The position numbers and the translations under genes were made by a program. 53,262 nt of DNA from an uncultured Bacteroidia bacterium (GTDB taxonomy: Bacteria > Bacteroidota > Bacteroidia > Bacteroidales > F082). The DNA lies in contig CADBZW010000029.1 of NCBI GenBank assembly GCA_902799345.1, positions 1 through 53,262 of the forward strand, written 5' to 3'. Positions 11,372 to 48,262 of the stretch are shown here, one piece after another. Under the pieces are notes generated by a model. It was not told where the DNA came from and did no database searches. It saw nothing but the letters and a program-made list of their open reading frames with translations. Position 1 is the first letter of the stretch. Every line of letters starts with the position of its first letter.

Positions 11372-11712
11372 GAGTCAGCCGCCCAGGTCGAAGCCCAGCC
11401 TCCCATGTCATTCCTGCAGAGGCATGCGGGTGAGAGGGAATCTATGGGGGGCGGGACAAAGAAGCCAAAACTCCCACAAGACGGCTTCAACAGCTATAGA
11501 TCCCATGCCTTTGCCCACCAGCCTCCGCAGGGATGACATATCTGTTGAAGCCTGAATAATCTGGCGCAGGGATGACATGCTTTCTGAAGCCTGAAAACGC
11601 TAGCCTCCCATGTCATTCCAATTAGCTGTCCATGTCATTCCTGCAGAGGCAAGTGGGTTGGAGGGAATCTATGGGCAGCGGGATAAGAAGTAATAAATTG
11701 AAGTAATAATGT
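11372..11712. repeat. Intergenic block of palindromic core repeats
   Basis: No gene. Contains ATAGATCCC...GGGATGACAT units in both orientations: about 11399-11455 (reverse), 11485-11550 (forward, with CTTCAACAG / CTGTTGAAG ends) and 11574-11680 (partial forward, then reverse). Related blocks flank the next gene. Confidence 0.8.
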
Positions 11713-11994
11713 ATGAAAACCTATTGGGTATATATGATGCAAAGTGCCAACGGGCGGGCTTTATACACTGGTGTTACAAATGACCTTGATAGGCGTGTTA
11801 GAGAGCATAAAGAAGGTAGTGGGTCTGTTTTCACGGCTAAGTATAAGTGTCATAAACTGGTGTACTTTGAAGAGTTTGGTTTGATAGACCAGGCGATAGT
11901 TAGGGAAAAAGAGATAAAAAGCTTATCGAGAGCGGAGAAAGATAGACTAATAGATACTATCAATCCTGATAGAAAAGATTTATTTGAGCAGTAA
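11713..11994 (+). CDS. GIY-YIG nuclease family protein (UPF0213/YhbQ-like)
   Basis: 93 residues, a stand-alone GIY-YIG domain: YWVYMMQSA (first Y of the motif), LYTGVTNDLDRRVREHK (Y-x-G with the conserved Arg) and later AIVREKEIKSL with the Glu. The length is that of single-domain family members common in Bacteroidota. These are often found as isolated, mobile genes; the cellular substrate is not known. Both flanks are palindromic repeats. It is more AT-rich than the fcl and DUF937 genes, consistent with a separate origin. Confidence 0.9.
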   Translation: MKTYWVYMMQSANGRALYTGVTNDLDRRVREHKEGSGSVFTAKYKCHKLVYFEEFGLIDQAIVREKEIKSLSRAEKDRLIDTINPDRKDLFEQ

Positions 11995-12002
11995 AAAGTA
12001 TA

Positions 12003-12190
12003 GCCTCCTATGTCATTCCTGCATGGGAAAGTGTGTGGGCATGGAATCTATAGGAGGCGGGATAAGAAGAAAAACCTCATTTGACGGCAATTGAAGCCAT
12101 AGATCCCATGCCACCGCACAGGTCGGCGTAGGGATGACATGACTTCAAGAGCCTGCTACTGCCTATTGTAGTGATGACATGGCTGCTAAA
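12003..12190. repeat. Palindromic core repeats before DUF937 gene
   Basis: A reverse unit at about 12009-12060 and a forward 58-bp unit at 12091-12148 with TTGAAGCCAT / ATGACTTCAA ends and ATAGATCCC / GGGATGACAT core. The remainder to 12285 carries the promoter of the next gene. Confidence 0.8.
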
Positions 12191-12237
12191 CGGACAAAAA
12201 AAGATAAAACCATAAGCCATTATTCCAGATACTTTCC

Positions 12238-12245
12238 TACCTTTG
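12238..12245 (+). promoter_or_regulatory. -7 box of DUF937 gene
   Basis: TACCTTTG, 40 bases before ATG 12286. Confidence 0.65.
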
Positions 12246-12285
12246 CAGTCAACAAACATAGCAATCAACTTAATAACAAAAAACC

Positions 12286-12813
12286 ATGGACTTAAGTAAC
12301 ATCCTCGGCGCTCTGACCGGCAACGATGCCGTCGGCGCCATCGCTGACAACCTCAAAATCGACTCCAAACAAGTGTCTTCCGTCATCACCAGCGCCCTGC
12401 CTACGTTGCTCGGTGCGATGCAGAAGAACGCCTCGACCCCTGGCGGTGCCGAAGCCTTGGCCAAGGCCCTCGGCGACCACGCCGGTAACGCTGGCAACAT
12501 CATCAACAACCTGAAAGTCACCGACCTGACCGATGGTGGCAAGATCCTGGGCCACATCTTCGGCGGTAACCTCGGCAATGTGTTGGGTGGCATCTCGAAG
12601 CAAACGGGTGTGGCAACCAATTCGGTGGGTAACATCCTCGCTGCCATCGCCCCCAGCCTGCTCGCCCTTCTCGGCAAGCAGAACGGCAACTCGGGTGCAG
12701 CGGGCCTGGGTGGCTTGCTGGGTGCCCTCCTCGGCGGTGGCCAGGCCGGCAACACCAAGACGGGTGGTCTCGGCAGCATCCTGGGTGGTCTGGGAAAGAT
12801 CTTCGGGAAATAA
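12286..12813 (+). CDS. DUF937 domain protein
   Basis: 175 residues. Helical N-terminal part with the DUF937 pattern (AIADNLKIDSKQVSSVITSALPTLLGAM), repeated once (NVLGGISKQTGVATNSVGNILAAIAPSLLALLG), then a Gly-rich tail (GLGGLLGALLGGG...LGSILGGLGKIFGK). No signal peptide. Family function is unknown. It has its own promoter and is bordered by palindromic repeats on both sides, so it appears monocistronic. Confidence 0.85.
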   Translation: MDLSNILGALTGNDAVGAIADNLKIDSKQVSSVITSALPTLLGAMQKNASTPGGAEALAKALGDHAGNAGNIINNLKVTDLTDGGKILGHIFGGNLGNVLGGISKQTGVATNSVGNILAAIAPSLLALLGKQNGNSGAAGLGGLLGALLGGGQAGNTKTGGLGSILGGLGKIFGK

Positions 12814-12827
12814 AGGCCTAGCCTCCC

Positions 12828-12990
12828 ATGTCATGCCAACCTCTTCCTTAGCCGTCATGGCGGACAAGGATCCGCCATCTCCTATGCAGTAGGGGGGACT
12901 GTCGCATAGGAGATCGCGGGTCAAGCCCGCGATGACAACCAAAGGAGCGGACGACCGGGGGGTAGGGATGACATGCTTTCTGAAGCCTGC
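12828..12990. repeat. Composite GCGGGTC element and core repeat
   Basis: 12853-12937 holds GTCATGGCGGACAAGGATCC / GCCATCTCCTATGC, then GCATAGGAGATCGCGGGTCA / GCCCGCGATGAC, a nested double hairpin of ~85 bp. It matches the composite in the aminotransferase gene. Partial ATGACATGC units lie on both sides (about 12828 and 12962). Confidence 0.85.
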
Positions 12991-23302: not shown

Positions 23303-23377
23303 CGTGATTGCGAGCGCAGCGAAGCAATCTAGAGTAGAGACTTTCCCCTAGATTGCTTCGCTGCGCTCGCAATGACG
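23303..23377. repeat. GATTGCGAGCGCAGCGAAGC palindromic repeat, likely bidirectional terminator
   Basis: CGT-GATTGCGAGCGCAGCGAAGCAATC-TAG at 23303-23332 with its near-perfect complement at 23348-23377. Sits between convergent genes (coiled-coil protein and recO). The sequence is a repeat type widespread in bacterial genomes rather than a plain terminator. Confidence 0.85.
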
Positions 23378-27636: not shown

Positions 27637-28230
27637 TTATTTCTTTTGAATCTTCAATTTCACATTAACGCCTTCCACCAATTCCTCGGCCTCCACGCCG
27701 TCCAGGGCGTCGACCTCGGTGATGGTGGCCAGGGTCTCGTTGCAGATGTAGTCACCGTATTGCTTCACGGCAGCGTCGATCTTGTCGTTCTTCTCGATGA
27801 GCAGCTCGATGCGGTCGGTGACCTCGAAGCCTCCCGTCTTACGGAGGTTCTGCACACGGTTGACGATCTCGCGGGCGAGGCCTTCCTGCATCAGCTCATC
27901 GGTGATGGTCATATCCAAAGCCACGGTGAGGTCGTCTTGTGAAGTGACGGCCCAGCCGGGGATGTCTTGTGTCGAAATCAAGGCGTCTTCGAGGGTGAGC
28001 TCGACGTCGACGCCGTCCACGTTGAGGTGGGCGCCGTTGTTCTTCTCGAAGGCATGGATCTCGTCCTGGCTCATGTTGGTGAAGTAGGCCTGGATTTGCT
28101 TCATCTGCTTGCCGTACTTCTTGCCCAAGGTCTTGAAGTTGGGCTTCACGTTCTTCACCAGGATGTTGTTGTCGGGCGAGAGGAACTCGATCTCCTTGAT
28201 GTTGACCTCGCTCTTGATGAGGTGCGACAC
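27637..28230 (-). CDS. ileS: Isoleucyl-tRNA synthetase, C-terminal fragment (after frameshift)
   Basis: Continuation of ileS in another frame. The frame reads V-E-N-L-E-K-V-S-H-L-I-K-S-E-V-N-I-K-E-I-E-F-L, the conserved C-terminal anticodon-binding region, and runs 197 residues from the first ATG to the normal end. Relative to the N-terminal frame the shift lies near 28240, right after VRQPL. The usual ~20-residue linker between VRQPL and the ENLI segment seems missing, so a deletion not divisible by three is likelier than a single-base slip. Either a real lesion, an assembly error, or expression as two pieces. Confidence 0.75.
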   Translation of the reverse strand: MSHLIKSEVNIKEIEFLSPDNNILVKNVKPNFKTLGKKYGKQMKQIQAYFTNMSQDEIHAFEKNNGAHLNVDGVDVELTLEDALISTQDIPGWAVTSQDDLTVALDMTITDELMQEGLAREIVNRVQNLRKTGGFEVTDRIELLIEKNDKIDAAVKQYGDYICNETLATITEVDALDGVEAEELVEGVNVKLKIQKK

Positions 28231-30959
28231 CTTCTCGAGATTTTCGACAGGGGCTGACGCACGCGGATGTTGGCTTTCTTACGCAGCGAGAGCACCAGCG
28301 AGGAGACCAGCTGTGCCATCTCCATGCGTTCCTCCAGGGCCTTGTCGATATAGGTCTTGTTGGCCTCTGGGAAGTCGGTCAGGTGCACCGACTCGGCCTT
28401 GTTGCGTCCCGTGACGTTGTTGAGGTCGCGATAGAGTTGTTCGCTGAAGAACGGCGCGATGGGCGAAGCCAAACGTGCCACGGTCTCAAGGCAGGTGTAA
28501 AGGGTTTGGTAGGCCGATAGCTTGTCTTGGTTGTCTTCGCTCTTCCAGAAACGGCGGCGCGATAGGCGCACGTACCAGTTGCTGAGGTGGGCATCGACGA
28601 ACTCGCTGATGGCACGACCCGCACGAGTAGGCTCATAGCTGCAATAGGCGTTGTCGACTTCGAGGATGAGGGAGTTCAACTCCGAAAGAATCCAACGGTC
28701 GATTTCGGGGCGGTCTTTGATGTCGATGTCGGCTTGGCTATAGTCGAACTTGTCGATGTTGGCGTACAAGGCGAAGAAGGCGTAGGTGTTGTAGAGGGTG
28801 CCGAAGAACTTACGGCGCACCTCGTCTACGCCAGCCTCGTCGAACTTCAGGTTGTCCCAAGGCTGCGAGTTGGTAATCATATACCAACGCACGGCATCGG
28901 CGCCGTATTTCTCGAGGGCACCGAACGGGTCGACGGCATTGCCCAAGCGTTTCGACATCTTGTTGCCGTTCTTGTCGAGCACCAAGCCGTTGGAGATGAC
29001 GTTCTTATAGGCCACACTGTCGAAGCACATCGTGGCGATGGCATGCAGGGTGAAGAACCAGCCACGGGTTTGGTCGACGCCCTCGGCGATGAAGTCGGCC
29101 GGGAAGGGCAGCGTCCGTCCTTCTGTCTTAAGTCCTCCGTCCTTCGTCTTCTCTCCCATGTAGTGATATTGAGCGTATGGCATGGCGCCGCTGTCGAACC
29201 ACACGTCGATGAGGTCGGGTTCACGGAACATCTTCTTGCCTGTGGGCGAGACCAGCACCACGCCGTCGATATACGGGCGGTGGAGGTCGAACTTGGTATA
29301 GTCTTCAGAGGCATACGGATTCTCGGTCATGAATCCTGCCTTGATGGATTTCTCGATTTCGTTGCGCAACTCTTCCACGCTGCCGATGCAGATTTCTTCC
29401 TTGCCGTCCTCGGTGCGCCAGATGGGCAGTGGCGTGCCCCAGTAGCGCGAGCGCGACAGGTTCCAGTCGACAAGGTTCTCCAACCAGTTGCCGAAACGGC
29501 CGCTACCAGTGGCCTCGGGCTTCCAGTTGATGGTCTTGTTGAGCTCGATCATGCGGTCTTTGAGGGCCGTGGTCTTGATGAACCAGCTGTCGAGAGGATA
29601 GTAGAGCACGGGTTTGTCGGTGCGCCAGCAGTGCGGGTAGTTGTGCGTATGTTTCTCGCTCTTGAAGAGCTTGCCTTGTTCCTTGAGGAGCATCACGATG
29701 TCGACGTCCAACGACTTGTCCTTTTCGGTCTTGGTGGGGTCGTAGGCGTTCTTCACGAACTGGCCGGCGTAGGGGCGGTAGGCCTCCACGTCCATGCAGT
29801 TCTTGACGAATTCAGGGTCGAGGTCTTCGATGCGGAAGAACTTACCCGTGCGGTCGACCATGGGTTGCGGCTTGCCGTCCTTGTCGATCATCTGGAGGGG
29901 CGGGATGCCGGCGGCGGCGGCCACGCGCTTGTCGTCGGCGCCGAAGGTGGGGGCGATGTGGACGATGCCCGTACCGTCTTCAGTGGTCACATAGTCGCCA
30001 GGGATGATGCGGAACGCGCCTTCGCCCGGGTTGACCCACGGGATCAGCTGCTCGTATTCGATGCCGACGAGGTCCTTGCCTTTGCATTCAGCAACGACTT
30101 CGGGGGCTTCCTTGAACATCGTCTCCACCAAGGCTTTGGCCATGATGATTTGGCAAGGTTCCTCGGTATAGGGATGCACGGTCTTCAGCAACACATAGTC
30201 GATGTTGGGGCCAACGCAGAGAGCGGTGTTGCTCGGCAAAGTCCAAGGAGTTGTCGTCCACGCGATAGCGTAGGTAGGGCTGTCACATTGTGGCAGCCGT
30301 ACATTATTTTTCAATTTGAACAATGCCACGCAAGTCAAATCCTTCACGTCGCGGTAGCAGCCGGGCATGTTCAGTTCGTGGGAGCTGAGGCCGGTGCCGG
30401 CAGCGGGCGAGTAGGGCTGGATGGTGTAGCCTTTATAGAGCAAGCCTTTGTTATACAAGTCTTTCAGCAGGAACCACAAGGTCTCGATGTAGTCGTTGGT
30501 GAAGGTGATGTAGGGGTCGTCGAGGTTGACCCAATAGCCCATCTTGCGGGTGAGGTCGTCCCACATGTCCTTGTATTTCATCACCTCCTCGCGGCAGGCG
30601 CGGTTGTAGTCGTCCACCGAGATCTTTTTTCCGATGTCTTCCTTGGTGATGCCGAGTTTCTTCTCCACGCCGAGTTCGACGGGCAGGCCGTGGGTGTCCC
30701 ATCCGGCCTTGCGGACGACGTGTTTGCCTTTCAGGGTTTGGTAGCGGCACACCACGTCCTTGATCGAACGGGCCATCACATGGTGGATGCCTGGGGTGCC
30801 GTTGGCGCTCGGCGGACCTTCGAAGAACACGAAGGCGTTGTCCTTGTCGCGGTTGTCGAGGCTCTTCTGGAAGGTGTCGTTCTCTTCCCAAAAACGGCGG
30901 ATTTCATTGGCTGTCTCAGTGAGATTCAGCTGTTTATATTCCTTGTAGTTGCTTTTCAT
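28155..30959 (-). CDS. ileS: Isoleucyl-tRNA synthetase, N-terminal/catalytic part (frameshifted)
   Basis: Class I synthetase charging tRNA-Ile. Seen: the HIGH-type motif in PPSANGTPGIHHVMAR, AGWDTHGLPVE, the editing domain start AWTTTPWTLPSNTA, GVDQTRGWFFTLHAIA, and NKMSKRLGN (KMSKS type). The real frame ends near VRQPL (~28242); the last ~28 residues (Arg/Ser-rich) are out of frame. Two segments derive from repeats: NVRLPQCDSPT before AWTTTPW is half of the 73-bp palindrome (30274-30302), and KTKDGGLKTEGR (about 29112-29152) is encoded by imperfect CGTCCTTCxGTCTT units. The full product should be ~1110 residues. Confidence 0.93.
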   Translation of the reverse strand: MKSNYKEYKQLNLTETANEIRRFWEENDTFQKSLDNRDKDNAFVFFEGPPSANGTPGIHHVMARSIKDVVCRYQTLKGKHVVRKAGWDTHGLPVELGVEKKLGITKEDIGKKISVDDYNRACREEVMKYKDMWDDLTRKMGYWVNLDDPYITFTNDYIETLWFLLKDLYNKGLLYKGYTIQPYSPAAGTGLSSHELNMPGCYRDVKDLTCVALFKLKNNVRLPQCDSPTYAIAWTTTPWTLPSNTALCVGPNIDYVLLKTVHPYTEEPCQIIMAKALVETMFKEAPEVVAECKGKDLVGIEYEQLIPWVNPGEGAFRIIPGDYVTTEDGTGIVHIAPTFGADDKRVAAAAGIPPLQMIDKDGKPQPMVDRTGKFFRIEDLDPEFVKNCMDVEAYRPYAGQFVKNAYDPTKTEKDKSLDVDIVMLLKEQGKLFKSEKHTHNYPHCWRTDKPVLYYPLDSWFIKTTALKDRMIELNKTINWKPEATGSGRFGNWLENLVDWNLSRSRYWGTPLPIWRTEDGKEEICIGSVEELRNEIEKSIKAGFMTENPYASEDYTKFDLHRPYIDGVVLVSPTGKKMFREPDLIDVWFDSGAMPYAQYHYMGEKTKDGGLKTEGRTLPFPADFIAEGVDQTRGWFFTLHAIATMCFDSVAYKNVISNGLVLDKNGNKMSKRLGNAVDPFGALEKYGADAVRWYMITNSQPWDNLKFDEAGVDEVRRKFFGTLYNTYAFFALYANIDKFDYSQADIDIKDRPEIDRWILSELNSLILEVDNAYCSYEPTRAGRAISEFVDAHLSNWYVRLSRRRFWKSEDNQDKLSAYQTLYTCLETVARLASPIAPFFSEQLYRDLNNVTGRNKAESVHLTDFPEANKTYIDKALEERMEMAQLVSSLVLSLRKKANIRVRQPLSKISRRCRTSSRARSTSRRSSSSRPTTTSW
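30274..30302 (-). repeat. Half copy of 73-bp palindromic element inside ileS
   Basis: GTAGGGCTGTCACA-TT-GTGGCAGCCG matches the left half of the elements at 31424-31496 and 40128-40200 except at the two central bases. It reads R-L-P-Q-C-D-S-P-T on the ileS strand. Confidence 0.85.
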
Positions 30960-31423: not shown

Positions 31424-31496
31424 TGTAGGGCTGTCACACCGTGGCAGCCGCATGTTGGGTTGCCCATTGCGGCTGCCGTAATACGACAGCCCTACA
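31424..31496. repeat. 73-bp palindromic element, intergenic copy
   Basis: Ends TGTAGGGCTGT / ACAGCCCTACA, with inner GTGGCAGCCGC / GCGGCTGCC arms and a short centre. Exactly as long as the copy inside the polyprenyl synthetase gene (40128-40200). It lies between the giant T9SS gene and the small membrane protein gene. Confidence 0.95.
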
Positions 31497-31506
31497 AGCC
31501 TCATTG

Positions 31507-34500
31507 TCATCTCACCACCACCTTCTGCACCTTCACATTGTCGCCATTCACGAGGCGGAGCATGTAGACGCCAGCAGGTTGGTTGATGCGGATTTCGGCG
31601 TTGCCGTCGATTTGCTCGCTGCTGAGCACGCGGCCCATCACGTCGACCACTTGCAGCGTGGCGCGACCTTGGTTGCTGACGACCCATTCGCTGCCGTTGA
31701 AGAAAGCGAAACTGGGTTCGCAAGCGTCCCCGCTTGCAGCGTCGGCACCAAACACCAAGCGGAAGCGCGAGGCATAGTCGGTGGTTTTGGCGGTGAAGGT
31801 GTACGAAGCCGTCATTGCGGGCGAAGACCCGCAATCTCCTACGGCTTCATGGTTAGAGGCAAGCAAATCCACATCCGCGCCCGTCATGTTGTCGATAAGG
31901 TGCAGGTAGTCCATCTCCACGTTCTCCACGTCGAAGCTGAGCGTGTAGGTGCCGTCCTTCTCTGCCTTGAAGTTGAGCGGCATTTCGCCTTGGGCGGCAC
32001 TGCGCACCACGGCAAACTCCTTGTCGCCTTGCGGGATGCTCAACTTGGTGCTGTTGGCGTTGAGCTGGAACTTGGCGAGCGTGTTGCCTTCGCCGAAGCG
32101 CACCGTGGCACGGTCGATGAGCATGCCTTCGTTGTTGCTGGCATTGACGTTGATACCGCTTTCCCTGGGTTGTTCACGCGTGAAACTCACCTTAGTGACG
32201 TTTTGTGCCACTTGCACGAAAATGCCCTCGCAAGGATGGATGGGTTGGCTGGCTGAGGCTTCCATCAATTCGGTGCCTTGCGGGTTCATGCGGTAATAGG
32301 CTTGGTTGATATAGGCATCGTAGGTCCAAGGATTGCCAACGAGGTTGAAGCCCTTGAATGAAGCACTTTCATCATAATGCACATTATAACCACCACTGAA
32401 ACTCTGATTCAAATATCCTTCAATTTCCACAGTAGTACCATTCTTGCTGGCATAGAGCACGCCCTGACCGCGATTCCACCGTGGATTGGCTCCGTCTATT
32501 TTGAAGTTTCTCCATTCATCATTCTCGCTTTGGTCGAATGAATAAAGGTCATAATCGCCATTGTCGACAAGGTGATGGATTTTTCTGTTCTCGGCATAGA
32601 CATTGTCATGGGGTATTGGGCATGAAAGCAAATACCAGTTCCCTGTACCTTCACCATAGCCGACAATGTTTTTGCGCATAGTGCCATTAATAGGATGATT
32701 ATTATTATAAATCACTTGGGCACCATCGTCAATGATAAACAGTTTTACTCCATTGGCTCCATTATTAATTCGTTTGTCACCCATATCCAGCACTGCGCCA
32801 GCGGCCACAAGCGTTGGTCCGCCTATACGGAGACCTTCTTCACCGCCGCCATACGTTTGTTCGCCGACGAACACCATGGTGTAAAGTTCCTCCTCGCCTG
32901 CCTTCCGGAACAAAGGCCAATACCAAATGTCGTTACTATTGAGCATGGTGGCACTCGTCTCATAAACGCCATAATCCACATAGTCTCCGCAACGGTTTTC
33001 CCTGCCTCTCGACCAGCCGACAAACGAATAGCCTTCGGGCGCAGCCATCGTCATATCATACAAGGGGCCGGAATGTGCGTATGTGCCTTCAAGGACGTTT
33101 GACTGGAGGTAGGAACCTGCATAGGAATAGTAACGAAGCTGGTACATTCTGGTGTAATACACCTCTACATGCACGTTTTCGTTGGGCATGGTGAAATCGA
33201 CATAGCTTGTGTTGTCAGAATTGTCGTCACCTGTTGCCGAAAGATAATGCCTCTGGTTTTGGTCGTCAATGGTAAAGACACCTACGCCTGAATATTGGTA
33301 GAAGATTTCGTTGTTCGCTCCCGTCGTCAAAGTAGTCGGGAATCTCATTTCAATTTGGGTGCTATGCATATAAGCACCGCTATATTGGCTCATTGTAGTC
33401 AGCGTAACGACCGGCAAATATTGCTCGTCTGGGTTCGTCTCATTTTGGATGACAGGGCCGTAAATCACGTTGTGCGGGCGATAGACGGTGATGTCGTTGG
33501 CCGAGCGAGGCAGAAGTCTGACGGTCTGCGAACCATCGGTGTTTTTCACGAAAAGGCCAGTTACGTCAACATCATTGGCCGGTGCCACATCCGTATCGAA
33601 ACAAGGGTCAACCACTGTTTCGTTTGCATTATATTGAGAAATGGTGAAAACGCCATTGGCATCCACATCATTAACATAGGCACCTGCCACCTTGACGACC
33701 ATGTTTTCCTTGCAGCTCCAAATCCAAGTGTGGCTATCATCGTCGGCCATGTTCATGTTCTCGTTCAACTCGGCGAGGGTCTTTTCCAAAGGCGCAATCG
33801 TGTTGCCTTGGCTCATCACCTGAAGCAACGCAACATTGCGCATCGTCAGCTGTTCTTTCCCATCGACGGTTTCAACATACGGTATGCCTCTCACGATGAT
33901 TTCGTCGCCCACGGCGAGTTGCATGAAGTCGTCCACATTCACGAAGTTGCTGCGAAGCAACATCATGCCGTTAGCATTGTCCTGCAAATAAATGGCATTG
34001 GCATCCTCGGTCCTGAAACTGACCACGCCCTTGGCGTTAGTAGGATCTTGTGTCTGCCCGTATTTGGCACTATTGCGAACGGAGGCTATGGTTCCCCATT
34101 GGTATTCATACGTCTTCTTGAAGAACTTGGTGTCGTACTGGCCCGATATGTGGTTTGCATCGTAGACAATCCAATGTTCTTTGCCATAGGTATTGTCAAC
34201 GGCCAAATAATAGCCATTGCGATAGAGATAATGTTGGGCTTCACTATTGGGTCGGGTAGCCAATACGAAATCACGGTTTTCAGTGCCCGAACCAATAGTC
34301 ACGCCTTCCGAAGCCGAATGTTTCAGATATTCGTTCCTGCCAACAGGCTTGAAATAGTACTTGCCTTGGTGGCGGTTGAGCGTCCATCTATAGTTGCTGG
34401 GCACTTCACCGTATGTTCCGTTATTGATGGATTTGATGCGGCAAACCCCTACGCCTTGATTCGCGTCATACAATTCAGTCGTCGCTCCGGCAACGGCTTG

Positions 34501-37170
34501 TTCCCAACCGACCGTACTCATGGCATTTTCCATGGAATAGTATTGGTAGCCTGCCATGCCGACAATGACAAACTCATCGCCAGGAAGGATGTCCTCCAAG
34601 TCGGTCTCATACCATTTTTCAGTCACATAGCTCGGCGCTCCCACATAATCAACCGTGACGCCTTGGCAATAAAGCGCTCCAGCCGTTGTGGTGATGCGGA
34701 TCTTCAGCACTTCCCCCGATTCGATGACATGATTGGCAGCGTTTCCGTTCATCTGGATGTCAATGTCGTGATAGCACTCTTCGCTATAGGTTTTGTTGGG
34801 CCACGACGACCCGAAAGCACCATTGCTGATGTGGGCCAAATCATGGTAAATTGCGTTCAAATCTCCCACATAGACCTGCACTGTGCCCCAAGCTTCTGCA
34901 CCCGGCTTCATATCCAACTTGATACCCTTAATGGTGTGGTCGACATAGCCTCTCAGTTGAAGCTCGAGATAATAGCGTTCGGATTCGTGATAGGGGATCA
35001 CATTATGGTCGAAAGACCCTGTTTGGTTTGAAACAACCGTAAGGCTGCTTCCCTCGGGCGGACAGGTGTAGACTTGTGTAGCGCCAGTTGCGTCGAAACT
35101 ATACACGTCGCGCGTGGTGGAGATGAGCGTTTCGGGGTCTTGGTGGATGGTCAGGTAGTCGCCATCAAGCCAATTCTCGGATGCTCCCATGACGTTGTCG
35201 TTGGCATCGTAGGCCCAAACGGAAAGGCATACGGTACGCCCGACGGCCAAAGAATTGCCTTGGCAGTTGTAATGGATCTCGTAGCCATCGTTAGTTTCCA
35301 CGAAATCGAGTGTAAGCCAGTTGGACTTGAGTTCGCAACCGCCTTCAGGGGTTTTCACCTTCCAATGGTGGACGCCCGACAAGTTGCTGCAAACCAACGG
35401 GATGGTGCCGCTTTGGGCTCCAGAGGCAAGCTCCAATTGATTGTTTTCGCCAAAGCTGATAGAGGCCCTGCCCAACTGGGTGATTTCGATAGGATCAGAA
35501 TAAACGTTATCGCCTTCATCTGTTACCCCTTCGATTCGTACATAAGTCGTGCGATTCTCCGAACTTGTATTGATTGTCTCATAATGGGTTAACAAATTGT
35601 ATCCATTGTTTCCATTCGAAGTCGTGGTTATGTTCAGCCACCGTTCAGTTTCCTCGGTTTGGCAAGTTGCGTCCGTATATTGTTTGACAGTGATGCCGTC
35701 TTGTGGGGTGAAGTTGTAGCACGTCGCGCCCGTCATGCGGAAACCGTTTGCCACCGACTGGGAAAGGGTAATATAATAATCACCCACCACGATGCAAGGT
35801 TCGGTCGTCAACATGAAATGAGGTTGTATCTTGATGTTGTAGGCAGGCATGATGAAGCGGTTGTTGTTGATTTCCACTGAGTTGTCGGCCACCCATTCGC
35901 CATCTTCTTCCTTGAACACGTCCCAAACGCCTGTGCCGACATAGCCAGAGTTGAGTTGCGTCGCCAGAGTGACCTCAGTGCCTGCGGTGTGGTCATAGCC
36001 TTGATAGCACACGGCATAACCTCCGGTTTCTTCCATGATGGTAATGTGATAAGTCGGATCCGTCACCGTTCCCGTCAGGTTGATGACCACATCAGTAGCG
36101 CGTTCGGCGCCTAACGTGAGGATGCCGGTGTAGGTGGTGTCTCGTTCCAAGCTGGGCTTCAGGCGCACGCCCAAGGTGAAGCCGAAATAACTGGCGTCCG
36201 TGCTTTGAACGCCAACGTATTGCCCGTTCCAAGTGATGGCATCCGGGTCGGTGACTTGGCAAAGCTCGAAGTCGGTTGAGTTCACTTCAGCCCAAATGGC
36301 AGAATTATTGCCAGGATTTTGGACGCCAAACCACATGAAATTTCCTTCGGGGTCTGGGTCGCCGTAGCCGTAGGAGAGCGTCATCGGGGTGGTCCCCACC
36401 ATGATGGTAGGCGTAGGCAGCGCGTTGTCAAGCACAAACGATGCTTCAATCAGCAGGTCGTAGGCAGGCATTAGAAATTCATATTGATGGTCTGCAAACG
36501 GAACATCGCTGAAATCATCAATTGTGATGCTTTCGGTCACATTTTCGTTGGTATTCTTGTTGTATAAAGTGAATCCATCAAAGCGATAACCTGAGGTTGG
36601 ATTTACATCCATAGAAACCACACCCCCTGCCACGACATCACGTGAAGGGTAAACGGCCACCCAACCGTGAGGATTGAGGCCATAGTCAAACTCGATGTTG
36701 TAGGTCGGGGCCGTCACCGTTCCCGAAAGCGTGATGGAGGCCGAAACAGGGCTTCCATTTACCGTCGTGGTGAGATTAACAACATCCTCGTGTTCGGTGT
36801 CTTGCTCATAACCAGGTCTCAAGCGCACACTGAATCCGAATCCGAACCAATACGGATCGGTAGTGGTGGCCGTGAATTGGGTAAGGTTGATCCACTCGCT
36901 TTGGCTTGATTCCGTGACCCACAGCTCGAAGTGGCTGTTTGTGCCTTGGCCCAAGCGGACAGTCACGTCGTTGCCTACGCCAAGGTTGGCGCAACTGACA
37001 TAGACATATTGTCCCTCAGGGGCATCATTGCCAACGCCATAGCTAAAACTCAAACTAGGCTCCGATAGGTTAGAAAATGTAATCGACTGTCCCCAGGCCT
37101 TCCCCATCGGGCCGACCAAGCCGCCGAGCAGCACCAAGGCTGCCAGCAGAAACGTAAACTTTTTCTTCAT
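31507..37170 (-). CDS. Giant T9SS-sorted surface protein
   Basis: 1887 residues from ATG 37170. Signal peptide to ~27 (ending AWGQ). Two ~230-residue N-terminal repeats each pair an Ig-like beta domain (SLSFSYGVGNDAPEG..., TLSYGYGDPDPEG...) with a repeat ending MPAYDLLIEASF / MPAYNIKIQPHF. Further BACON/Ig-like parts follow. The end (VVDVMGRVLSSEQIDGNAEI to KVQKVVVR) is a type A T9SS sorting domain, so it should be exported and anchored or released. A palindrome at 31813-31840 encodes an extra segment (VGDCGSSPAMTA) inside the region before the tail. Adhesin or matrix role is a guess. Confidence 0.85.
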   Translation of the reverse strand: MKKKFTFLLAALVLLGGLVGPMGKAWGQSITFSNLSEPSLSFSYGVGNDAPEGQYVYVSCANLGVGNDVTVRLGQGTNSHFELWVTESSQSEWINLTQFTATTTDPYWFGFGFSVRLRPGYEQDTEHEDVVNLTTTVNGSPVSASITLSGTVTAPTYNIEFDYGLNPHGWVAVYPSRDVVAGGVVSMDVNPTSGYRFDGFTLYNKNTNENVTESITIDDFSDVPFADHQYEFLMPAYDLLIEASFVLDNALPTPTIMVGTTPMTLSYGYGDPDPEGNFMWFGVQNPGNNSAIWAEVNSTDFELCQVTDPDAITWNGQYVGVQSTDASYFGFTLGVRLKPSLERDTTYTGILTLGAERATDVVINLTGTVTDPTYHITIMEETGGYAVCYQGYDHTAGTEVTLATQLNSGYVGTGVWDVFKEEDGEWVADNSVEINNNRFIMPAYNIKIQPHFMLTTEPCIVVGDYYITLSQSVANGFRMTGATCYNFTPQDGITVKQYTDATCQTEETERWLNITTTSNGNNGYNLLTHYETINTSSENRTTYVRIEGVTDEGDNVYSDPIEITQLGRASISFGENNQLELASGAQSGTIPLVCSNLSGVHHWKVKTPEGGCELKSNWLTLDFVETNDGYEIHYNCQGNSLAVGRTVCLSVWAYDANDNVMGASENWLDGDYLTIHQDPETLISTTRDVYSFDATGATQVYTCPPEGSSLTVVSNQTGSFDHNVIPYHESERYYLELQLRGYVDHTIKGIKLDMKPGAEAWGTVQVYVGDLNAIYHDLAHISNGAFGSSWPNKTYSEECYHDIDIQMNGNAANHVIESGEVLKIRITTTAGALYCQGVTVDYVGAPSYVTEKWYETDLEDILPGDEFVIVGMAGYQYYSMENAMSTVGWEQAVAGATTELYDANQGVGVCRIKSINNGTYGEVPSNYRWTLNRHQGKYYFKPVGRNEYLKHSASEGVTIGSGTENRDFVLATRPNSEAQHYLYRNGYYLAVDNTYGKEHWIVYDANHISGQYDTKFFKKTYEYQWGTIASVRNSAKYGQTQDPTNAKGVVSFRTEDANAIYLQDNANGMMLLRSNFVNVDDFMQLAVGDEIIVRGIPYVETVDGKEQLTMRNVALLQVMSQGNTIAPLEKTLAELNENMNMADDDSHTWIWSCKENMVVKVAGAYVNDVDANGVFTISQYNANETVVDPCFDTDVAPANDVDVTGLFVKNTDGSQTVRLLPRSANDITVYRPHNVIYGPVIQNETNPDEQYLPVVTLTTMSQYSGAYMHSTQIEMRFPTTLTTGANNEIFYQYSGVGVFTIDDQNQRHYLSATGDDNSDNTSYVDFTMPNENVHVEVYYTRMYQLRYYSYAGSYLQSNVLEGTYAHSGPLYDMTMAAPEGYSFVGWSRGRENRCGDYVDYGVYETSATMLNSNDIWYWPLFRKAGEEELYTMVFVGEQTYGGGEEGLRIGGPTLVAAGAVLDMGDKRINNGANGVKLFIIDDGAQVIYNNNHPINGTMRKNIVGYGEGTGNWYLLSCPIPHDNVYAENRKIHHLVDNGDYDLYSFDQSENDEWRNFKIDGANPRWNRGQGVLYASKNGTTVEIEGYLNQSFSGGYNVHYDESASFKGFNLVGNPWTYDAYINQAYYRMNPQGTELMEASASQPIHPCEGIFVQVAQNVTKVSFTREQPRESGINVNASNNEGMLIDRATVRFGEGNTLAKFQLNANSTKLSIPQGDKEFAVVRSAAQGEMPLNFKAEKDGTYTLSFDVENVEMDYLHLIDNMTGADVDLLASNHEAVGDCGSSPAMTASYTFTAKTTDYASRFRLVFGADAASGDACEPSFAFFNGSEWVVSNQGRATLQVVDVMGRVLSSEQIDGNAEIRINQPAGVYMLRLVNGDNVKVQKVVVR
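31813..31840 (-). repeat. GCGGGTC palindromic element inside giant T9SS gene
   Basis: GTCATTGCGGGC-GAAG-ACCCGCAATCTC on the plus strand, the reverse complement of the element in the aminotransferase gene and at 12909-12935. It reads G-D-C-G-S-S-P-A-M-T. Confidence 0.9.
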
Positions 37171-37248
37171 AGTGTTATGTGTTTTGATTGTTGTTTGATG
37201 CAATGCTATTATTCCACTTGCAAAAATCAAAACAAAAATCCGACTACC

Positions 37249-39821: not shown

Positions 39822-40649
39822 CTATGCTGTCCGTTCGGCGCAGAAAACGGTCAGGTCGCGCAGTGTTGCAAGCGTTTCCGTAGGAGGGAAGACTTCCAAT
39901 GCCTTCAAAGATTGTTTAAGGTATTGTGGCAATAGGGCTTGCGCCATTTCTGTGTTCTCGCCATCGAGCAGGTCGTCGCGCAGCTGGAAAAGGATGCCGA
40001 AATTAAGGCCGAAGTCCGAAATTTGTTGGATTTGTTCTTGTGTGGCCCCCACCGATAGGGCGCCTGCCGCGCAGCACGATTGCATGAGCATGGCGGTTTT
40101 GCGGGTGATGATGTCCAAATATTGGTCTGTAGGGCTGTCACATCGTGGCAGCCGCTGTTGTGTTGCATCACAGCGGCTGTCGTGGTACGACAGCCCTACA
40201 GAACCTTGCATTAATTCCCCTTCGCTCATGGCGGCGGTGGTGCGCAGCATCTCGTTGAGGATGGCGGTGTCGTTGGCAAGGAGCAGCATGGCCTTGGCCA
40301 AGAGGTAGTCGCCGGCCAGCACCGCCGACAGGTTGCCGAACCGCGCCTTCACCGAGGCGTGGCCGCGCCGGCGGTCGTCGTCGTCCACCACGTCGTCGTG
40401 GATGAGTGTGGCCGTGTGCACCATCTCTGCGAAGGTGGCGGCACGCAGCGTCAGTTCGTTGACCTCGCCAAACATCTTCGCGCCAAGCAGCACCAAGATG
40501 GGCCGCAGGCGCTTGCCCTTGGTTTCGAGCGCATAGCGCATGATGCTGTCCATCGGCTCGGTATCGGCCTTCAACGTCTGTGCGAAGAAGGCTTCGAACT
40601 GTGTCAACTCTGCACGAATGGGCTCGATGATATGTTCCAATTTTTTCAC
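39822..40649 (-). CDS. Polyprenyl diphosphate synthase with repeat-encoded insertion
   Basis: 275 residues, trans-isoprenyl diphosphate synthase making the C40-type chain for quinone or carrier lipids. Seen: GKRLRP, first Asp-rich motif LIHDDVVDDDDRRRG, and second motif LRDDLLD. Between SEGEL (family 'SEGEL.Q') and DIITRKTA, about 24 residues (GLSYHDSRCDATQQRLPRCDSPTDQY-like) are extra and encoded by the 73-bp palindrome at 40128-40200. The insertion falls in a loop between helices, away from the two Asp motifs. The GTG start at 40649 is only 5 bases from the -7 box; TTG at 40640 is an alternative. Confidence 0.9.
   Translation of the reverse strand: MKKLEHIIEPIRAELTQFEAFFAQTLKADTEPMDSIMRYALETKGKRLRPILVLLGAKMFGEVNELTLRAATFAEMVHTATLIHDDVVDDDDRRRGHASVKARFGNLSAVLAGDYLLAKAMLLLANDTAILNEMLRTTAAMSEGELMQGSVGLSYHDSRCDATQQRLPRCDSPTDQYLDIITRKTAMLMQSCCAAGALSVGATQEQIQQISDFGLNFGILFQLRDDLLDGENTEMAQALLPQYLKQSLKALEVFPPTETLATLRDLTVFCAERTA
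40128..40200 (-). repeat. 73-bp palindromic element inserted in polyprenyl synthetase gene
   Basis: Same ends (TGTAGGGCTGT / ACAGCCCTACA) and inner arms as 31424-31496, same length, different central bases. 73 bp plus flanking bases leave the frame open; it reads on the gene strand as a segment containing D-S-R-C-D and R-C-D-S-P-T. Confidence 0.95.
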
Positions 40650-46800: not shown

Positions 46801-46909
46801 CGTCACCAAGGAAGGCTACCTCAACAACGGCTATGCCTTGATCCAATGCCAGTATGCGCCGGAGTTCAGTGCTTATTCGGATGGGATGAAGGTGAAAGTG
46901 GGTGAATAA
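40859..46909 (+). CDS. Bacterial alpha-2-macroglobulin family protein
   Basis: 2016 residues. Signal peptide (LGIIIAITALVAVGALAFA). A helical N-terminal region, then MG-type beta domains with the MG2 mark DRAIYRPGQTVYFQGIVTR (~600), the A2M core FFPQLRTNQDGSATFSFTMPDALTRWRLMLLAYTKDRKTG (~1245), and a helical TED-like region (~1450-1800). I find no CxEQ thioester, so covalent trapping of proteases is unlikely; Bacteroidales homologues often lack it. A CCTTCGACAGGCTCAG unit (44921-44936) adds D-G-P-S-T-G-S-G-T-C within an MG domain. Likely a periplasmic or surface protease inhibitor/colonisation factor. Shares its 3' terminator with the convergent nuclease gene. Confidence 0.9.
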   Translation: MKHLGIIIAITALVAVGALAFAMPSKAPDNPDNPKTPKNSYETMWKKVKENLEKNLPESAEKELVAIEEQASKDKNQTQLLKTWLYRQKIYQFTVEEDPEQAFIQYIEEKVGQLDEVHNALLHEEIARAYAGYLDNNEWRISENLPIDGDLSKVEMKYWDKESFKTRINQHYEEALKPVEALKKAKTEDFMVLYENMNNNENYIEYEASLFEFMFHRVANYYQGEANADDVEGETDAWWLPANDFVKADLGAADNPLAKCLKIYQDLIAYNIKEKNEDVLIYNDFKRFGFVNSILGKDEKYQTAMEDLKAQHKDNPLSAEITSLIARNLINQYESNSSDSAYFDHYKKAKAMCEAAIAKFPKSKGAKNCQSLIKRIEEPQIDISLNSVQLPNEAIPAVLEYRNVTAPYYRIVKVSEKELKRLRDMRDKEELLKELNKMPAVAEKDLTLPAETDYREHSTLIALPTLDKGIYYLVASTEKGTKDKDKTLTLTFQVSSLGYITDQIEDKMTVTVVDRKTGKTVEGVTVEVWRSEWDYKAREYKTIIIETPKTDRNGIVKLSKKSDNSFYINLRKGDDNLLSDNSYYLNARYKNDDERYETKLFTDRAIYRPGQTVYFQGIVTRRQGENLSLVNGYSENISFRDANWQEISSAKFTTDEYGSFSGSFVIPTDRLNGVFRLNANRGNTTIRVEEYKRPTFEVNFERPKEQYKLNQEVTVRGDVKAYAGFGLDDVEYSYRVVRKTSFPWRCWWWWYPTVEDEQITFGKGRTDESGKFAVTFNLKPSLSIAPEKQPMFTYEIEVTATSKQGETHADTYSIRAGYNEIAISTDLPSEVEKSEMGKYQITVSNLSWQPAKSRVSRKIYRVENSKKINYFKTMGRRETLDRQLLSDEDLARLFPEYSFYDKQNKTLVDDATISVDDKAKFYEGKALEPGKYIVELKSLDDPLAMTSQQFTVFENGSKQMPFTTMEWNHLDKSTAHPGDEIQLSLGTSANAVEVWVQLLHGDEVRLDKKITLSDEVQNLSYKVTENDRGGLAWRYAFVKENSLNTSRMSVSVPFDNYNLDVKLATMRDKLSPGAEETWEVTVRDYKDKPLEAALLAGMYDASLDEFERNYWWFNMSPSGVYGSSFGTDGHSFTSSRTAIGYLYFAELFNFSLPSDAPFFDFGYGYGGRRYRKGGRVYEDVYMCVEESAPMMSGAVLQKNSVSADGAVEVEEESEIFQTEQPKAGVALEQQDKSEAEPALRENFNETAFFFPQLRTNQDGSATFSFTMPDALTRWRLMLLAYTKDRKTGSKDYTFTSSKPVMIMADMPRYMYDNDELWFVANVINTGDEPVAPKAKLEIFDAGTMEPVDLIINDGPSTGSGTCTIPMETIQPGRSKEVRWKVKGQYDLSLLAFRFTAYAGQFSDAEQHLLPVLSSEIFMTQTLPITVKAETEKTFDFEAIANPDSHERDYSLTLNFSTNPVWYAVQALPYLANVSTDRAETAFYVFYANTLSSYIADHIPNLLNYIKKWQIETPDALLSQLEKDQDLKAIMLQETPWVLEAKSETEQRSRIATLFEVNTIRNQQTNALRLIKDKQKYNGGWPWMDGMPESPYISTYILSGFGKLQKMGAWESLSKADQNTAQSICDKAVRYLEYEVAETYRYMKAHSKGKDWPIGSGTLNELYALSFFEVQNSDRDFAKAKDYYLKSLDKEWTSFNFNQRSKGALVLYRNGNEKTAKLMIQSFKECAQKNEQIGMYWPKKYFSFESHIATHANIMAAFAEIDQNQEMIDQLRVWLLTQKQTTMWENSASTADAIYALLMRGSDWFEEGKEVTLRFGNTPISTEGGVAGTGFIQRRWNANEVTTDMRQLTVNNPTNHLVWGGLFRQYFVPIDEVKSDESGFTIKRELFVETVTDKGKVLVPAEKRTLKVGDKLTVKITFTSQQDMSFVFVKDLRAAGFEPIEQISRYEYNDRMSYYQSNTDTDMEFFIEFLPKGTHQLEYSMFVTKEGYLNNGYALIQCQYAPEFSAYSDGMKVKVGE
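44921..44936 (+). repeat. CCTTCGACAGGCTCAG unit in alpha-2-macroglobulin gene
   Basis: Identical 16-mer to 4394-4409 in the HU-like gene and read in the same frame (P-S-T-G-S). It introduces a short Gly/Ser/Thr loop. Confidence 0.9.
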
Positions 46910-46955
46910 AAATCAGTAGGGGCAGACCCGCGGGTTTGCCCCTACTGATTTTTAT
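46906..46955. terminator. 50-bp palindromic bidirectional terminator
   Basis: Perfect 19-bp arms (ATAAAAATCAGTAGGGGCA and its complement) around GACCCGCGGGTT, itself containing ACCCGCGGGT. It includes the stop codons of both convergent genes. The GTAGGGGCAGACCCGCGGGT core resembles a repeat type seen in many genomes, recruited here as terminator. Confidence 0.9.
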
Positions 46956-48262
46956 TTCACCACCACCTTTATCGTCTGCCCCCAGCCCTTCTGATGCCTG
47001 ATGCGCAGCAGATAAAACCCTTCTGGGACATCCTGCAGGTCCATCTCAACCTGTTGCGCCCCATTCACGAAATGCTCGGAATGTCGTTTCAGCAGCTGTC
47101 CTTGCAGTGAAAACAACTCAAACTGCACGACGCCTGCCGATGGGTTGAAGAAGCTTACTTTGGCAACGCCCGAGGCGGGATTGGGCGAGATGGAGGCTTC
47201 CATGGAGGGCATCTCCGACTCATCCACACCCACTGAGACATCCGTGAAGATTTTCATCGTCACAGGGAGGTGGTCGGAACAGCCGTATAAGGCATTTGCC
47301 ACTTCGACGGGTACGGAAGTGTTGGTGCCTTGGTTGACGCTTTTGTTGAAATGCTTTCCGTCGTTGCCAACGGCTTTGAAGGAATTGCGCACATAACGCA
47401 TGTGGTCGTAGCTGTAGGCGATTTCGTATGACATCATGATGAAGTCGAAACGGTCGTCAAGGCCGCCGGACGAGAAGCATTCTTCGTTGTCTCTGTGTGT
47501 GGCTTGCGTGTGATATGGGGCAAATTGGCTGTTGTAGTTCCACTCGCCCACGCCCCCCACTTCGTATAAGGGGTCTTTGAAAAGGGCGTCAGGGTCGGTG
47601 TAGGTCTGGGTGAGTATCTTGTAACCGTTCTCACTGGCACCATACAGATTGAAATCACCCATAATCAGCACGTTGTCTTTTGCATAGTGCTGGCTGACGT
47701 AGTACATGGTGGTCTGCAGTTGTTCAAAGCGCCTGTTTCTGTCGCTTGCCGTGTTTCCAGCCTTGAGATGGGCCACGATGCAAATCAGCGAGACGGTGTC
47801 GCCAGCGGCCAAACTGGGCGTTTTCAGATAAAGCTCGTAGATGTCAGTGTCTCTTGGGTTGGTGCGCAATGCCACGTGCTTCCTCAAACCTAGCTTTCTG
47901 GAGTCGTAGAAGATGTGGTTGATGATATTGCTGCCGGCATAGTTGAGGATGTTGTCGGTTTGCCAATAGTTGACATTGCCCATGTTGAGGTTGTGGCGGA
48001 CAAAATCATCCAGTAGCTGTTGCGGGGCGCCAAATTCGCATACGGTGAAGATGTCGGGTTTCACATAGTCTAAGATGGTGCGGATATATTCGTCTTTTTG
48101 CTGGGTGTTGTTGTTGGTTTCATAGCAATCAGCATAGCCGCTCTGGTAGTTGCCGTAATACAAAAGGTTGTATTGCATCACCGTGAGGGTGTCCTGGGCT
48201 TTCATAAAGACGGGTGCCAACAACAATGCAAGAAAAAAAACGGTTTTGTGTGTCATCATCAA
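46952..48262 (-). CDS. Secreted endonuclease/exonuclease/phosphatase-fold protein with T9SS tail
   Basis: 436 residues. Signal peptide ending FMKAQ (~22). EEP (DNase I-like) fold marks: VMQYNLLYYG (metal-binding Asn), FTVCEFG (metal Glu), IVAHLKAG (catalytic His), LIMGDFNLYG (D-x-N) and GCSDHLPVTM (final DH pair). The C-terminal ~85 residues are a T9SS sorting domain (SISPNPASGVAKVSF ... GFYLLRIRH...VVK). Probably an extracellular nuclease or phosphoesterase. Three consecutive ATGs start it; MMMTHK begins at 48262. Promoter -7 box at 48276-48283. Confidence 0.9.
   Translation of the reverse strand: MMMTHKTVFFLALLLAPVFMKAQDTLTVMQYNLLYYGNYQSGYADCYETNNNTQQKDEYIRTILDYVKPDIFTVCEFGAPQQLLDDFVRHNLNMGNVNYWQTDNILNYAGSNIINHIFYDSRKLGLRKHVALRTNPRDTDIYELYLKTPSLAAGDTVSLICIVAHLKAGNTASDRNRRFEQLQTTMYYVSQHYAKDNVLIMGDFNLYGASENGYKILTQTYTDPDALFKDPLYEVGGVGEWNYNSQFAPYHTQATHRDNEECFSSGGLDDRFDFIMMSYEIAYSYDHMRYVRNSFKAVGNDGKHFNKSVNQGTNTSVPVEVANALYGCSDHLPVTMKIFTDVSVGVDESEMPSMEASISPNPASGVAKVSFFNPSAGVVQFELFSLQGQLLKRHSEHFVNGAQQVEMDLQDVPEGFYLLRIRHQKGWGQTIKVVVK

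Follow-up and report, generated by a model that had tools for sequence, protein, structure and literature searches.

A REPIN in frame in a polyprenyl diphosphate synthase gene of an uncultured Bacteroidales bacterium, and the varied filling of the same loop in its relatives

How a long palindrome came to lie in frame inside the gene of a housekeeping enzyme, and what occupies the same place in related species, is the question raised by a polyprenyl diphosphate synthase gene on a contig of an uncultured Bacteroidia bacterium (the window, that is, the whole stretch of 53,262 nt that was analysed). A sequence-only reading had described a 73-nt palindrome at 40128-40200 and a copy of the same length at 31424-31496, both of which were borne out, with matching ends and inner arms; a third copy in the window, the single unit at 30274-30302 in the isoleucyl-tRNA synthetase (IleRS) gene, had been overlooked.

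The hairpin element, its repeat family and the RAYT gene

Each arm of the palindrome is composed of a GTAG foot adjoining an imperfect hairpin, GGCTGTCAC/GTGGCAGCC or the variant GGCTGTCGT/ACGGCAGCC (Table 1). Folded as single-stranded DNA, the segment reached -26.4 kcal/mol, against a mean of -12 for 200 dinucleotide shuffles, none of which was as good (z = -6.8). Since 73 nt is not divisible by 3, the reading frame is held only jointly with the adjacent bases.

Table 1. Coordinates of the element, its copies and the genes concerned (window positions unless a contig is named)
Feature	Position	Strand	Basis
REPIN: two inverted GTAG-tagged REP hairpins and a short centre, inside the polyprenyl synthase gene	40128..40200	.	
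REP unit, type GTAGGGCTGTCACANNGTGGCAGCC, 0 mismatches	40129..40153	+	pattern scan
REP unit, type GTAGGGCTGTCGTANNACGGCAGCC, 1 mismatch	40175..40199	-	pattern scan
Second full REPIN, 73 nt, 10 nt past the stop end of ORF 31507-37230	31424..31496	.	
Polyprenyl diphosphate synthase, 275 aa, carrying the insert; loop residues 149-176	39822..40649	-	Pfam + model
Single REP in frame in IleRS, peptide VRLPQCDSPT	30274..30302	.	
IleRS ORF holding the single REP	28155..30959	-	
RAYT-like (Y1 HuH) transposase gene, REP array at 3' end, REP pair in frame inside	G000:C2:26680-27372		

In the bacterium's own genome (G000; 3.13 Mb, 51 contigs), 49 exact REP units and 83 in total at up to 3 mismatches were counted, and the reversed control pattern gave 0. 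Together with one unit from a separate search they merge into 44 sites across the genome, which confirms the dispersed repeat family that had been proposed; the family, left unnamed at the time, is that of the REPIN/RAYT systems. Inverted doublets 55-80 nt long were found at 16 sites, at one of which the units face outwards; their arms are similar and their centres mostly different, save for two on contig C19 that have one centre in common. At 9 of the 44 sites the REP is spanned by an ORF that has at least 100 aa in all and 30 aa to either side of it, the other 35 being taken as a group; on this count the REP is high-copy, dispersed and mostly extragenic. The flanks of 30 REP units, read by eye, revealed no obvious target-site duplication of the kind that marks a classic MITE.

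The genome also harbors a RAYT-like gene with the same REPs inside it and beside it, the latter on the 3' side only. It matched the NCBIfam model REP_Tyr_transpos at E = 3.8e-12 (46 bits, below the 80-bit cut-off) and, weakly, the TnpArep structure 4er8 in the PDB (E = 0.0048). The motifs NHIH, WQ and YIQHNP are present, the last appearing as YIQNNP or YVQNNP in some orthologues, and the ATG of the orthologues is out of frame in this copy. Four orthologues, L145-L148, which are 87-90% identical, retain REPs in the same inner loop, where others have a different sequence. With its GTAG foot, the copy number of its family, the inverted doublets and the cognate RAYT, the segment is, as an element, a REPIN in every respect tested; the cutting and movement of the REP by this RAYT are putative.

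Searching by PF01797 alone, to which the cognate RAYT scores 16.9 bits against a cut-off of 23 bits, had led to three Y1 genes, but this REP was absent from the stretches examined, and this route was given up. A Y1 transposase gene, L031 1216-2350 on G000:C20, lies amid many CCCCGTAGGGG repeats, often about 50 nt apart, which are a different GTAG-containing repeat. In other RAYT-like genes of the genus (L160, L161, L163, L164), the peptide DVPWRVST was seen in the same inner loop and, in L160 and L163, also near the start of the open frame, perhaps representing REPs of their own in frame.

At 7 of the 44 sites in G000 the REP falls in frame within an ORF that matches a known family. The polyprenyl synthase and IleRS are two of these; the others are RAYT, DUF2851, rhamnulose-1-phosphate aldolase (RhaD), peptidase U32 and an outer-membrane efflux protein. 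Two further spanning ORFs (C7:39471; C44) match no family and were left out of the gene count. Relatives with other or shorter loops were seen for RAYT, DUF2851, IleRS and the synthase. By-eye reading of 30 fetched IleRS loci found a REP in nine, a four-residue GMDN stub in two and other fillings in the rest, and that of 30 DUF2851 loci found REP peptides in 7, a PPxPLKR repeat in 4, another extension in 1 and a short loop in 18. The suggestion that the palindrome itself keeps frames open found no support: the 16 full copies average 2.25 open frames (shuffles 2.70) and the 23 single copies 3.70 (shuffles 4.31), and the idea of a special frame-keeping palindrome was rejected.

Other irregularities of the window were recorded as well. 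The IleRS open frame is 938 residues long with a tail unlike that of relatives, and the next ORF overlaps it (27637-28230 vs 28155-30959, minus strand); many relatives have 1106-1156 residues and two have 946 and 984 (lengths with contig ends unchecked), and the odd tail is either a sequencing error or a real break. Two more long inverted repeats, of other sequence and 88-89% complementary, lie at 23303-23377 and 46898-46963, and a tandem 12-nt repeat, GGTAAAGATACA, occupies 702-797 in ORF 115-1044.

The synthase loop and its fillings among orthologues

The synthase ORF is intact and reads SEGELMQ-GSVGLSYHDSRCDATQQRLPRCDSPTDQ-YLDIITRKTA, in agreement with the earlier statement that the gene stays open across the segment with extra residues between SEGEL and DIITRKTA. 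It matches Pfam polyprenyl_synt at E = 1.6e-48, and its nearest solved relative is 3rmg by sequence and, by fold, polyprenyl synthases such as 3oyr. Structure modelling, which the sequence-only reading had proposed, gave a pLDDT of 92.4 overall, falling to about 50 for residues 151-170; the helices on either side, 128-150 and 173-199, are confidently modelled, and the insert coincides with the low-confidence, probably disordered stretch between them. The predicted peptides VGLSYHDSR and CDSPTDQYLDIITR are candidates for a translated insert.

For the orthologues, 60 of the genus's 99 genomes supplied the best 30 loci and a scan across GTDB species supplied 49 more (out of 80), giving 79 sequences, 52 of them distinct; when all 99 genomes were searched later, 63 gave a match at 1e-55, the extra matches lying outside this set. 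Judged by eye from the peptide, the loop holds a REPIN in 10 + 5 genes (two right-arm frames), a KLRD palindrome in 8 (one only half), an EGMSF repeat in 2, a GATGC palindrome in 3, a short ADCVPQ palindrome in 4, tandem-like or other fillings in 9, and short or other sequence in 11. The alignment with relatives lacking the segment, also proposed earlier, thereby brought to light 6-residue loops without a palindrome in L056, L057, L082, L084, L092, L093 and L098; no clean empty site for the REPIN was found among the synthase orthologues, the shortest loops (18 nt) being 66 nt shorter. One in-frame stop occurs in L049 (read as X), and none was reported or seen in 51 of the 52 orthologues within the stretch used. 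In a palindrome scan of 51 orthologues (L072 was omitted, and was added by hand to the class and tree set), the loop surpassed every same-length window of its own gene, stepped by 9 nt, in 27.

A gene tree was built with the loop left out, and 20 of its 49 inner branches are unresolved. Placing the classes on it takes 21 changes, the minimum possible being 7; shuffled class labels need 34.8 on average, and 0 of 200 shuffles needed as few as 21. The classes are therefore clustered, yet far from one origin each, and the sequences compared indicate partial agreement of the filling with the gene tree. Unrelated loops were found in 6 of 13 pairs with at least 89% core identity; in one of these both loops are 6-residue stubs, of different sequence. 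The clearest sister pair is L051, with a 132-nt KLRD loop, and L083, with a 42-nt palindrome, whose flanking DNA is 95% and 97% identical on the two sides. Across 903 pairs, the identity of the loop correlates with that of the core at 0.29, against 0.60-0.83 for windows of the core, which are themselves part of it; the nine T-class genes were left out here and in the flanking-codon comparison described below.

The other fillings differ in their distribution. KLRD-type sequence was present in all 13 genomes searched, with 51-92 matches each, often of one arm only and with both strands counted. EGMSF-type sequence was found in 7 of 7 genomes, with 2-17 matches, only two of which are full-length, both at the synthase locus; several copies of a repeat CATGTCATTCCTGCAGAGGC...GGAATCTATGGG, resembling this filling of the relatives' loop, were noticed in the window at 11396-12837. 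The GATGC-type palindrome of L083 is not dispersed, as its sole exact match in 99 genomes is its own locus and its matches at 3 mismatches are about as few as those of the reversed control. Compared with L076 (40-nt GATGC-type palindromes), it has four stem pairs changed on both sides with pairing kept, and single-side changes only in the outermost pair and next to the apex. Correction from arm to arm during replication would give paired changes, and the double changes fit either this process or structural selection.

Conversely, some distant genes have REPIN cassettes that are nearly identical, silent sites included. The REPIN loops of L034 and L068 are 99% identical and their cores 81%, with third codon positions alike at 27 of 28 sites in the loop versus 164 of 245 in the core. 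Six R1 genes whose loops measure 84 nt (L040, L041 and L097, with 87-nt loops, were left out) form 15 pairs, in which third-position identity is 0.86-0.96 in the loop and 0.53-0.67 in the core. In 16 of 18 R1/R2 REPIN pairs, a comparison that left out L035 and L037 as well, no equal-length core window reaches the value of the loop; the two exceptions have 20 and 13 such windows out of 193. The excess is less marked among KLRD genes, and several ADCVPQ pairs give no clear picture.

The centre of this REPIN cassette occurs in 7 of 99 congeneric genomes, once per genome, always at the synthase locus and nowhere else in them, which indicates that the present copy is no recent arrival from a local pool and that its source was not other copies in those genomes. 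Codons flanking the loop were compared in 72 same-class and 472 different-class pairs with core third-position identity of 0.50-0.70, and the difference, 0.008, was reached by 366 of 1000 permutations; the flanks are equally alike in both groups, so no transferred tract was seen. Homologous-recombination tracts around the cassette were accordingly rejected, the raised identity of neighbouring codons being equal in same- and different-class pairs.

Proposed origin and turnover of the loop fillings

Very probably, a REPIN of the RAYT-tied family landed in the synthase loop with the frame kept, and such loops serve as landing pads in this genus. This reading builds on the REP family and its copy number, on a RAYT gene that carries these REPs both within it and alongside, on a frame that stays open and on a filling that departs in part from the gene tree. 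Weighing against it are the failure to find a clean empty site or a target duplication, the confinement of the cassette centre to one locus, the undispersed palindrome of L083, and the RAYT's score below the cut-off, its REPs on one side only and the out-of-frame ATG. The most likely course is a selfish REP insertion, followed by turnover: a REPIN would land in the probably disordered loop between two helices, only insertions that keep frame and fold would survive, the insert would then be translated as about 24 tolerated residues, and repeats of several families would enter the loop, shrink or decay, and be replaced. Past movement driven by the RAYT, translation, tolerance by the protein and selection for frame would all have their part in it.

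An inherited origin accounts for some of the same facts. A single old REPIN insertion may have been kept by constraint, other fillings arising through loss and re-insertion with no exchange between species, as is suggested by the cassette centre being confined to one locus, by classes clustered on the tree beyond chance despite its unresolved branches, and by flanks without a transferred tract. This is possible but doubtful, because third positions are far more alike in the R1 loops than in the cores, nearly all R1/R2 pairs lack a core window that equals the loop, and silent sites are beyond the reach of protein-level constraint. With comparable reserve it may be proposed that the palindromic fillings are locus-specific alleles which pass between species and swap nearly precisely through palindrome- or RAYT-driven exchange, perhaps selected for variety. 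The boundaries of a swap would then lie at the element, with no flank carried along, and the loop of a housekeeping enzyme would evolve by swaps of mobile hairpins instead of point mutation. The loops of IleRS, DUF2851 and RAYT may behave as cassette sites in the same way.

That the hairpin itself is useful in the gene as an RNA or DNA structure, for instance a pause or stability element, with unrelated palindromes arising by convergence, would agree with the several unrelated palindromic fillings at one spot and with the doubly changed, still pairing stems of L083 and L076. It is improbable, since seven orthologues lack a palindrome and have loops of only 6 residues, nine genes that form a clade are filled otherwise, for the most part with tandem-like sequence (class by eye), the IleRS loop varies among relatives between the REP, other repeats and a 4-residue stub, and arm-to-arm correction would also yield paired changes. 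Less probable still is an assembly artefact, in which metagenome bins would have had sequence of different species stitched together at palindromic repeats. Repeats are places where assemblers fail, and the 49 named-relative loci all come from records titled uncultured or MAG; yet the same insert is present in two assemblies, G000 and G055, 98% identical in the gene core, the loops of L051 and L083 differ between closely matching flanks, a stop was seen only in L049 within the stretch used, and three other genes vary in the same manner.

If selfish insertion with turnover is the right account, selfish repeats write protein sequence in conserved genes of an uncultured gut lineage, including that of a tRNA synthetase, an enzyme normally essential. 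Sister genes that are nearly identical yet differ in their loops allow direct tests of how inserts arise, decay and are exchanged, and are relevant to the spread of REPs, a question still open.

Comparison with known systems

The palindromic elements of Rickettsia are tolerated in frame in many proteins, and the parallel with them drawn by the sequence-only reading is fair as an analogy. The two have in common in-frame palindromes in several proteins (7 of 44 sites here) and copies outside genes; the present host differs, the nearest named record for the synthase being the Bacteroidia MAG RUG11511 (99% identical over the protein), and a RAYT gene is present. The likeness is one of behaviour, and the present element is not classed with them.

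REPINs were described in Pseudomonas as extragenic, dispersed inverted REP doublets of about 70-110 nt that form long hairpins and are tied to RAYTs (Bertels and Rainey 2011, PMC3116915). The present element is likewise an inverted, dispersed doublet with a long hairpin and a RAYT gene in the genome, and differs in also lying in frame in genes and in belonging to an uncultured Bacteroidales lineage. Frame-preserving REPs inside RAYT genes of subclass 2.4, abundant in Bacteroidetes, were reported by Quentin et al. (2018, PMC6006769). The G000 RAYT has the features of this subclass, namely NH[IFV]H, WQ and YIxNNP-like motifs and REPs within the gene, a likeness drawn from these features. Their report concerns REPs within RAYT genes; in the present genome the REP also occurs in six other family-matched ORFs, and differing fillings of orthologous loops are a feature of the present case. 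The earlier statement that nothing like this had been described for Bacteroidota therefore stands in part, and gives way for RAYT genes with in-frame REPs.

In other phyla, dimers of GTAG and CGTC REPs code for 20-30 residues in unrelated genes, and the recB genes of two Xanthomonas species carry REPs that differ from each other at roughly one position (Di Nocera et al. 2013, PMC3733652), which is a partial precedent for varied fillings at one site. In the relevant part of that paper, which also mentions the Rickettsia elements, GTAG REPs are not listed for Bacteroidetes and genus-wide turnover of one loop is not described. Turnover of unrelated fillings in one loop across sister species was likewise not found in the open-licence literature searched. 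In-frame REPs are thus already published, including those in Bacteroidetes RAYT genes, and the element is of a known kind; what looks new is the site, a single loop in which palindromes of several unrelated kinds, tandem-like repeats or a stub of 6 residues may be found.
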